Shown: piece after piece, positions 5,718 through 13,429 of the stretch
How the letters are laid out: each line of letters opens with the position of its first letter
Numbering within the stretch: position 1 is the first letter of the stretch
From: Bradyrhizobiaceae bacterium
GTDB taxonomy: Bacteria > Pseudomonadota > Alphaproteobacteria > Rhizobiales > Aestuariivirgaceae
Assembly: GCA_947475225.1 (NCBI GenBank)
Contig: CANJMQ010000002.1
Location: 1 to 64,000, forward strand
Direction: 5' to 3'
Length of the DNA stretch: 64,000 nucleotides
Position numbers and translations under genes: made by a program
Notes under the pieces: generated by a model
The model's database searches: none
Told to the model about the DNA's origin: nothing
What the model saw: the letters and a program-made list of their open reading frames with translations, nothing else

Positions 5718-6203
5718 TTAATTCACCAATTCGATCATGTGGTCACACGTACCATCGGCATGGTGTACAGACGTTATTTGCCCACGTGCGCCGATGTATG
5801 TGCCTGTACCCCCTACCACTGAGCGGATCTGTGGGGTTTCATTGGACATTTCAGTCGCCGTTGCAGCGAAAACCGCTTTGCCTGAGATCAGCAGCGATGA
5901 CCCGTCACCAAAATCAATCGTAAACTGACCCACGCGGTCCTCAACGTTCTCCGTTGCTCCAGCCAAGTCAACGGTCATCAAGAAACCATCCATAATCGCC
6001 TTGACGCCATTGTCGCCAGTCAGATTGGCTTCAAAGGCGAGAATATCGCCGTCGGAATGTCCGACGGGCGGCAGGTCAATGGAATGCAATTCGGGAGCTT
6101 CCTGGTGCAATTTGATAACGGTCCGCTCCATAGCGAAAGCGCTGCCAATAGAACACGCTGCTGCCGCGAGTAGTATCATCACTTTGGTAAGGCGAGACTT
6201 CAC
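5718..6203 (-). CDS. Secreted allene-oxide-cyclase/dirigent-like barrel protein
   Basis: Signal peptide MKSRLTKVMILLAAAACSIGSAFA; VVGGTGTYIGARGQITSVHHADGTCDHMIEL motif. Confidence 0.65.
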   Translation of the reverse strand: MKSRLTKVMILLAAAACSIGSAFAMERTVIKLHQEAPELHSIDLPPVGHSDGDILAFEANLTGDNGVKAIMDGFLMTVDLAGATENVEDRVGQFTIDFGDGSSLLISGKAVFAATATEMSNETPQIRSVVGGTGTYIGARGQITSVHHADGTCDHMIELVN

Positions 6204-7448: not shown

Positions 7449-9032
7449 TCAGATCGATGACTCCTCTGAGTTGAATGCAATACCGCGAAAGCCGATGGCC
7501 AAAGCCAGGAGACGGGTGAAGGTGGCACCCATTCCCGTTATGAGTATAGCGGCCACGACATTTTCGGGCACCAGCAAGATCGGTCTGGTGAGAAGGTAAA
7601 GCGACAGAAGTGCGCCCCAGATCAGCGGTACTTCTATGTAGAATTCCTTGTGTAATACACCTGGCTTTCCCGCTTGGCGCAGCACGTCACGCAAGATACC
7701 GCCACCGGCGCTCGTCAGCATGGCACAAATCGGCCCCCACAGCCATAGCGGCTCCGCGCCCATGATCACGGCAACCGCGACTCCTGTCACCGTGAACGCC
7801 CCGAGTCCCACGGCGTCGCTTATGTCGATCAGGGTTGTCAGCTTTATGATCTGCGGTAGGTTCCAACCGCGCCGTCTGACACGTTCTCCGATGCGGATGA
7901 TGAAGAGGCCGCCTACCACCGTGAGAGCCACGAGGCACAGTGGAAGCGGCGACGCGAGGATGAAGATCGGATGGCGGTTCAGGATGAGGTCACGGAGCAC
8001 GCCACCGCCCACCGCTGGAAGAGCGGATAGAAAGAGTGCCCCTGCTAGGTTAAAGCGCTCGTGATAGGCAATCAGCACCCCTGACAGGGCAGCGGCGATG
8101 ATTCCGGTTATTTCAAAGCTGCGGAACAGCGGAGTGCTGAAGACATAGGACAGTACCGCGCTGAAGATCTTTGCATGCCCTAGCTTTCCCAGTGCGCCAT
8201 TCTCCTCAAGTTGGCTGATCGCAGCGTTGAATCGGTTCACTGTCTCAGGTGTGATTGTCGCCTTGCTGAACATGAAGCGGACGCCCGAGGCGCCGGGCAG
8301 TACCTTTTCGTAAGCCCTGTCTTTCAGATCTGCAGCAAGGATTGCAGTCACGGCGCCTAGTCTGTCAGTGAGGAAGCCATCAATCCTGCCGTCGAGCAAT
8401 TCGCGCAAGCTATCCTCGTCAGAGGTGGTGGCCACGAGGCGACCTTCTCGACCGGCTTGAATGAGAGCGTGGTTGATCGCGGGATCCTGGAATGTCCGAT
8501 CCGTGATGATTCCGATGCGGAAGGACGGGTCACTCGCTATCAGGCGTGCGGTGTCCGTCAGATCGTAGCGGGTGTCTTCACCGTTGCGGAGGAACAAGGA
8601 GATCCGGGCATAGCGATATGGAAGCGAATAATAGAAATCCGGGTCACCGTCGGCGGGTTGGAACGCGCCGGTTGTGATGTCGGCCTGGCCGGAGAGCAGG
8701 TCCGCACGTCGCGCAGTCCATGGCCGAGGCTTGAGTTTCACCTGAATGCCGGCACGATCTGCAACGGCCGAAAGTATGTCGATATCGAGGCCCCCAACCC
8801 CCTGGGCACTTCTTGGTTCAGGCACTTCATAGGGTGGAGAAGGTGTCCAGATACCTCTCAGTTCGAGGACTGGCGCATCGGGCTCCGGTCCTGTCGCCTG
8901 CTGGGCTGCGGTAGTAGGGCTACTGGCAATGATGAGCACGAGAAACATAGGCAGTAAAATGAACGCGAGACCCAGGGCAGTCGGCTTGCTGATCTGGATC
9001 TGACGTCCCCATTTCAATGATGCCTTAGCCAT
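7449..9032 (-). CDS. Fusion: family-3 periplasmic solute-binding domain + TRIC/UPF0126 channel domain
   Basis: N-terminal signal/anchor; GVGGLDIDILSAVADRAGIQVKLKPRPWTARRADLLSGQADI (SBP_bac_3-like); C-terminal ITGIIAAALSGVLIAYHERFNLAGALFLSALPAVGGGVLRDLIL and a second repeat GPICAMLTSAGGGILRDVL (UPF0126/TRIC). Confidence 0.85.
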   Translation of the reverse strand: MAKASLKWGRQIQISKPTALGLAFILLPMFLVLIIASSPTTAAQQATGPEPDAPVLELRGIWTPSPPYEVPEPRSAQGVGGLDIDILSAVADRAGIQVKLKPRPWTARRADLLSGQADITTGAFQPADGDPDFYYSLPYRYARISLFLRNGEDTRYDLTDTARLIASDPSFRIGIITDRTFQDPAINHALIQAGREGRLVATTSDEDSLRELLDGRIDGFLTDRLGAVTAILAADLKDRAYEKVLPGASGVRFMFSKATITPETVNRFNAAISQLEENGALGKLGHAKIFSAVLSYVFSTPLFRSFEITGIIAAALSGVLIAYHERFNLAGALFLSALPAVGGGVLRDLILNRHPIFILASPLPLCLVALTVVGGLFIIRIGERVRRRGWNLPQIIKLTTLIDISDAVGLGAFTVTGVAVAVIMGAEPLWLWGPICAMLTSAGGGILRDVLRQAGKPGVLHKEFYIEVPLIWGALLSLYLLTRPILLVPENVVAAILITGMGATFTRLLALAIGFRGIAFNSEESSI

Positions 9033-12955: not shown

Positions 12956-13429
12956 TCATTCAATTTGGAATACGTGTTTCCATGTTCCGTCATCAAGGTG
13001 GGTTGACACGACACTTCCTGACGCTCCCGCAAATCGTCCTGTACCCCCAATTATTGCCCGCTCGAGTGTTGTATCTGCTTTGAGGGTAGATCCCGATGCC
13101 GGGTAAAGTCCGATGCCTTCGATGAGGATCCGATCTTTTGCTTCGCCGGAGAAAGAAAATATTCCTAGAGTGATTCTGCTATCGAATGTTTCAGGCTTGT
13201 TCGCAGTTGCTGTCGTCGTCATAACCCAGTCCATCGTGACCTTGTCATTCTTGTCATCTTGACCATCATAGTGCCAAATCCTCTGGTCACCCACGGATTG
13301 ACCTGAAGCGCCTAAATCTATGTATGTCGGAGTTGGTACCTGTCCGTGAGTGACGGTCAATGTCGATTCGGCGTATGCAGGAATTGCCAATGCGCTCAAG
13401 AAAAGAACTAGCGTTGCGGCGGTTTTCAT
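12956..13429 (-). CDS. Secreted allene-oxide-cyclase/dirigent-like barrel protein (second copy)
   Basis: Signal peptide MKTAATLVLFLSALAIPAYA; AIIGGTGRFAGASGSVVSTHLDDGTWKHVFQIE parallels the 5718-6203 protein. Confidence 0.65.
   Translation of the reverse strand: MKTAATLVLFLSALAIPAYAESTLTVTHGQVPTPTYIDLGASGQSVGDQRIWHYDGQDDKNDKVTMDWVMTTTATANKPETFDSRITLGIFSFSGEAKDRILIEGIGLYPASGSTLKADTTLERAIIGGTGRFAGASGSVVSTHLDDGTWKHVFQIE

Follow-up and report, generated by a model that had tools for sequence, protein, structure and literature searches.

TRIC proteins are homotrimers with one pore in each protomer. Prokaryotic members of the TRIC/UPF0126 family (SsTRIC, 5wtr; SaTRIC; CpTRIC; E. coli YadS and YicG) are built from two inverted repeats, with GGG kinks, RD motifs, a D-R-D-Y lock and seven transmembrane (TM) helices. 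Inverted-repeat folds are typical of many secondary transporters. That of TRIC has outward-open and locked states, and the seven helices leave the C-terminus of the prokaryotic protein in the cytoplasm (PMC5477506). In vitro, archaeal TRICs pass K+ (PMC5401562, PMC5477506); conduction of Na+ by archaeal TRIC pores is described as well (PMC5401562). In 11 bacteria, glycine utilisation requires UPF0126 genes (review, PMC12173739), and the current Pfam name of PF03458 is 'Gly_transporter'. For bacterial TRIC/UPF0126 proteins, the roles of ion channel and of glycine/amino-acid transporter are both under discussion, and the fusion described here welds a receptor for a physiological ligand to the pore.

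Binding domains (SBPs) are joined to membrane proteins in several described systems. ABC importers of the GlnPQ type carry SBP_bac_3 domains tethered to the membrane domain in one chain; the fusion has no ABC permease fold, and no ATPase in the chain or adjoining it. SBP_bac_3 sensor domains of kinases and cyclases (3h7m; BvgS, 4q0c) are likewise membrane-tethered receptors, but their output is an enzyme and that of the fusion family is a pore domain. GluR0 and the ionotropic glutamate receptors (iGluRs) couple an amino-acid-type SBP fold to a membrane pore in one chain, as the fusion does. However, their P-loop K+-channel pore is inserted between the SBP lobes, whereas in the fusion a TRIC pore, which is trimeric with a pore in each protomer, follows an intact N-terminal SBP and is attached to it by one helix. 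Unlike other prokaryotic TRIC/UPF0126 proteins, whose repeats, kinks, motifs, lock and seven helices it shares, the fusion bears an external SBP and the residues W432 and E467, and the copy studied here has Ala at one filter Phe. A locus from the same bacterial family, L011:1501-1968 (G060:C216), contains a 409-residue ORF in which SBP_bac_3-like lobes lie on both sides of a TVGYGD potassium-channel segment, and by its sequence would be a GluR0-like receptor.

The window, the whole 64,000-nucleotide stretch of DNA analysed, contains one fusion gene (Table I). It is a single intact ORF of 527 residues with an ATG start and normal coding composition, and it encodes in one chain a signal/anchor helix, then SBP_bac_3, then a full TRIC/UPF0126 domain with its two repeats. 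Both domains scored above curated Pfam cut-offs: SBP_bac_3 (PF00497) at residues 65–284 with E 7e-13 and 48.9 bits (cut-off 26.4), and PF03458 in two stretches with E 3e-26 and 91.4 bits (cut-off 23.5). Sequence searches matched five solved bacterial and archaeal TRICs (5h36, 5wtr, 5wuf, 5h35, and 5wuc; E 3e-12 to 2e-11) and many amino-acid SBPs of solved structure. An AlphaFold2 model of the monomer, calculated from a 38-row alignment, has a mean pLDDT of 88.4 and a pTM of 0.81. In it the N-terminal helix (residues 19–37) precedes a binding domain of two lobes, after which come seven long helices. Foldseek confirmed the periplasmic-binding fold, with TMt 0.80 to 3h7m, the best match, and 0.80 to AncQR (4zv1). 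The initial annotation, which had read here an uninterrupted minus-strand ORF with a signal/anchor segment, an SBP and a full TRIC domain with both internal repeats, and had called for an HMM check of the two domains, thus agrees with ORF, Pfam and AlphaFold2 results; its assignment to UPF0126/TRIC holds, although Pfam no longer uses that name for the family.

Table I. Features of the fusion gene and the evidence for each
Feature	Position	Strand	Evidence
Fusion gene, signal/anchor + SBP_bac_3 + TRIC (PF03458 x2)	7449..9032	-	ORF, Pfam, AlphaFold2
N-terminal hydrophobic helix, residues 19–37, putative signal peptide or anchor	8922..8978	-	AlphaFold2 helix and sequence
SBP_bac_3 (type-3 periplasmic binding) domain, residues 56–291	8160..8867	-	Pfam 65–284; Foldseek
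G129, TPER-type Arg position (alpha-carboxylate clamp of amino-acid SBPs)	8646..8648	-	Arg in 43/50 members
D223, conserved Asp at alpha-amino-binding position of amino-acid SBPs	8364..8366	-	42/50 members
SBP-to-TM1 junction, residues 267–336	8025..8234	-	No indel in 50/50 divergent members; AlphaFold2 helices
TRIC/UPF0126 domain, residues 301–515, seven TM helices	7488..8132	-	Pfam, structure matches, AlphaFold2
A314, pore-filter Phe position (SsTRIC F16 / SaTRIC F20)	8091..8093	-	Phe in 48/55 fusions, 38/46 free TRICs
Repeat 1 kink motif GGGVLRD, 342–348, TM2	7989..8009	-	Sequence, family alignment
D406, first cytoplasmic-lock residue (SaTRIC D99)	7815..7817	-	55/55
W432, marker residue of SBP-fused TRIC clade	7737..7739	-	58/58 fused, 0/44 free
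Repeat 2 kink motif GGGILRD, 443–449, TM5, with lock residues R448-D449	7686..7706	-	Sequence, alignment
Y465, lock tyrosine (SaTRIC Y155)	7638..7640	-	54/55
E467, clade-marker Glu by cytoplasmic lock	7632..7634	-	58/58 fused, 0/44 free

A STAS protein is encoded 386 bases downstream of the gene; upstream, PhyH and an aldo/keto reductase are encoded divergently on the other strand. An FMN dehydrogenase, DUF3891 and small secreted proteins are further neighbors. No ABC ATPase or permease is found among them, as originally noted. No PF03458 gene besides the fusion was found in the source genome, which is 88% complete. The relatives' fusion genes have no conserved neighbor families, and an operon logic was rejected, the largest neighbor cluster seeming to consist of ORFs on the antisense strand of the fusion gene. 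At Rfam gathering thresholds, 32 loci yielded only tRNAs and one rpsB sRNA, with no glycine or other riboswitch upstream, and the surroundings of the window gene gave no match up to E = 1. The absence of a glycine riboswitch near the genes examined is neutral as to membership among glycine transporters. The products encoded at 5718-6203(-) and 12956-13429(-), on either side of the fusion gene, are small predicted secreted proteins alike in size and layout and are possible paralogues; the second has a weak Dirigent match.

Both domains are known, but no characterized member of the fusion was found. The literature searched on UPF0126, PF03458 and TRIC with SBP gave no description of it; Silverio & Saier 2011, Price et al. 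2018, TCDB and the Pfam architecture lists may mention it. The genome census proposed in the initial annotation identified 71 ORFs with both domains, among them 56 non-identical full-length fusions, of which 50 are below 90% identity. The Alpha-, Beta- and Gammaproteobacteria, Verrucomicrobiota and Planctomycetota are represented, together with one MAG of Desulfobacterota and another labelled Cyanobium. With the window genome included in every count, fusions occur in 4/69 genomes of the family (one with an in-frame TAG, one fragmentary), 6/398 of the order, 14/385 of the class, and 2/299 drawn evenly from the phylum. The fusion is a rare yet recurrent trait. Among named genomes, matches were found in Thalassospira, Marinimicrococcus, Reyranella, Anderseniella, Alpha proteobacterium BAL199, Zwartia and other Alcaligenaceae, Chromatiales, and Lysobacterales, and the Verrucomicrobiota, Planctomycetota, Desulfobacterota and Cyanobium-labelled members come from this collection too; these came from an alignment query, a single-protein query of genome contigs having given none. 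Plasmid and phage sequences gave SBP-only matches and no fusion copies.

A second type of fusion places an NMT1/THI5 binding protein (PF09084) before TRIC, at L019:1480-3201(-), L022:1405-3159(-), and L058:1450-3282(-). A search of 372 genomes of the class returned nearly exclusively stand-alone NMT1 proteins, and the sole NMT1 fusion evident among the matches listed is in the genome of L058, already known. In an unrooted tree of 108 TRIC domains (quick search, SH-aLRT only), a branch with support 100 sets off the free-standing TRICs. Next to them the three NMT1 fusions group as a clade (support 99), and a branch with support 98 separates all SBP_bac_3 fusions from the rest. A long branch separates the SBP-fused clade from the free-standing TRICs, and SBP-fused TRICs of both kinds would be one lineage if the root falls among the free-standing proteins. 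W432 and E467, present in all 58 fused proteins compared, NMT1 fusions included, also occur in the six (6/6) nested proteins in which no SBP was detected and are missing from the 44 free-standing TRICs compared. In 2/3 of the NMT1 fusions another residue (Ser, Leu) stands in place of the lock Arg. E467 is at the beginning of TM6, two residues past Y465; comparison with SaTRIC would place it near the cytoplasmic gate, and it may have a special part in gating or coupling. The nested L018 and L057 are TRIC-only proteins bearing the marker residues, an apparent secondary loss of the SBP; other nested proteins without SBP include the broken genes L070 and L096. Compared with 14 free SBPs, a thin sample, the SBP domains of the fusions are nearly one group (2 changes). 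Pairwise identities of the SBP and TRIC parts are correlated (Mantel r 0.40, 0/2000 permutations as high), though the rank correlation is only 0.08, which lends weak support to co-inheritance of the two domains.

Pocket positions were placed by alignment to amino-acid SBPs, in which the TPER Arg binds the alpha-carboxylate and the Asp at the D223 position the alpha-amino group. Because both residues are kept in most members, the ligand of most of the family is probably an alpha-amino acid. The window protein has G129 in place of the clamp Arg. Its relatives L002 and L108 also lack this Arg, for which a distinct pocket chemistry in this small clade would be the simplest reading. With the clamp lost, the ligand of the window protein is probably a related compound without the normal carboxylate contact. 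In a subclade (L017, L094, L098, L099, and L103), the Arg and other pocket motifs are gone and the TRIC part is well kept.

The joint between the two domains is constant in length. Residues 267–336, which comprise the SBP end and TM1, have no insertions or deletions across the 50 members below 90% identity; by contrast, several SBP windows and the TM3–TM4 loop show indel variation in nearly every sequence. In the model, the SBP end helix (280–298) and TM1 (301–324) are separated by a two-residue gap and form a near-continuous helix. Conserved junction positions are Y288 (36 of 50), P291 (47), W302 (48), and F303 (49). A loose tether would be expected to differ in length. Constant length and near-continuous helix together look like a mechanical coupling of the SBP to the pore, bearing in mind that TM regions resist indels too.

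Within the TRIC domain, both GGG kinks, the RD motifs and the D-R-D-Y lock (D406-R448-D449-Y465) are intact. The pair of filter Phe residues (SsTRIC F16 and F104), which is common in the TRIC/UPF0126 family and not universal, is incomplete: F413 is present, and A314 replaces F16. Changing the other filter Phe of SsTRIC or its lock residues to Ala gives gain-of-function mutants; the F16A mutant could not be detected in cells, and the authors attribute this to toxicity (PMC5401562). By analogy with these mutants, the pore of the window copy may be wider or leakier, or compensated elsewhere.

We tentatively prefer to gating, at somewhat less than an even chance, the reading that members of the family act in the inner membrane as binding-protein-dependent uptake proteins made of a single chain. 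With a cytoplasmic C-terminus and seven TM helices, the N-terminal SBP would be periplasmic, on TM1, and would hang above the periplasmic mouth of the pore, as the N-terminus of prokaryotic TRIC lies outside; the trimer would be crowned by three SBPs. The clamshell would capture a small amino-acid-like solute, and its closure would shift the SBP end helix leading into TM1. As TM1 lines the pore, ligand-driven closure could act on the pore directly. The TRIC protomer would then close to the periplasm and open to the cytoplasm as the lock D406-R448-D449-Y465, near E467, is released, and the solute would enter through the protomer's own pore. The glycine requirement of UPF0126 genes suggests that the substrates of this membrane domain belong to the same class as those of an amino-acid SBP, and with no conserved neighbor and no ABC partner the chain must work alone. 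The curated domain matches, the spread of 56 fusions across phyla, the conserved pocket Arg (43/50) and Asp (42/50), the inverted-repeat fold, the indel-free helical joint and the W432/E467 markers are also counted in favor. Conversely, archaeal TRICs are cation channels in vitro, mere delivery needs no rigid joint, no glycine riboswitch lies near the genes examined, and in the window copy both the clamp Arg and one of the filter Phe residues are missing. The long branch to the free-standing TRICs means that a glycine-transporter function may not carry over. If correct, uptake would make this an SBP-dependent transporter without an ATPase or a separate binding protein.

A ligand-gated cation channel, in which SBP closure pulls TM1 and opens the TRIC pore to K+ and Na+ in the manner of GluR0, is possible but on balance unlikely. 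NMT1-type SBP ligands are usually larger. Most pore motifs are kept in the NMT1 fusions, a pattern easier to reconcile with gating of a common permeant ion than with passage of each ligand, and two unrelated SBP classes on related TRICs likewise suit a common ion. Conduction of K+ and Na+ by archaeal TRIC pores (PMC5401562), retention of the lock residues and both kinks, a junction suited to force transmission, and the precedent of SBP and K+ channel in prokaryotic iGluRs (PMC3483616) argue in the same direction; bacterial genetics, which indicates glycine use (PMC12173739), a topology unlike that of iGluRs, the altered SBP pocket of the window protein, and the lack of any regulatory or electrical context seen argue against it. 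The ligand-controlled ion flux of the initial annotation therefore divides: a ligand-controlled pore is well supported by the conserved family, the indel-free helical junction and an N-terminus outside, but 'cation channel' is only one of two readings, given the glycine genetics (PMC12173739) and the Pfam name. Its iGluR parallel survives as an SBP fold coupled to a pore and is otherwise loose; the ligand pocket it asked for is mostly kept in the family, on a modelled SBP fold, and in the window copy lacks the usual carboxylate-binding arginine. Gating, if true, would be a ligand-gated channel design unrelated to the P-loop receptors. Slightly less likely is the broader proposition of a TRIC channel family gated by a periplasmic metabolite through a clamshell receptor, with a trimeric non-P-loop pore, which would have arisen apart from the glutamate receptors and would draw on two or more unrelated receptor modules, SBP_bac_3 and NMT1.

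It is improbable that ligand control has been altered or lost, with the SBP mainly a structural cap or a sensor of another cue and the window copy drifting. The window copy does deviate at the near-invariant family positions G129, A142, S291, L302, and A314, the same-genus L002 has an in-frame TAG, the subclade of L017 has a degraded pocket, and the SBP has apparently been lost in L018 and L057. However, the window ORF is intact and normally composed, its SBP fold is modelled with high confidence, its lock and kink motifs are complete, and the pocket is kept in most of the family. Two genes joined by a frameshift, the artefact that the initial annotation had named, by a chimera or by mis-assembly, or a chance functionless SBP fusion, is hardly credible and was rejected: nothing in its favor was found, and dozens of independent genomes from many assemblies carry the fusion with the same order of parts, with constant junction length in 50 divergent members.

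The L002 gene (G026:C8:31200-32624; 44% identity) has its TAG inside the SBP domain, and is either decaying or affected by a sequencing error. The fusion at L105, in a MAG labelled Bordetella parapertussis, is nearly identical to that of Zwartia and to that of an uncultured betaproteobacterium (L085), and the species label is probably wrong. Tandem fusion genes on the same strand with short gaps occur at L049/L064 (G659), L050/L065 (G556), L053/L068 (G604), and L097; the arrangement suggests paralogue pairs, whose products possibly form hetero-trimers.
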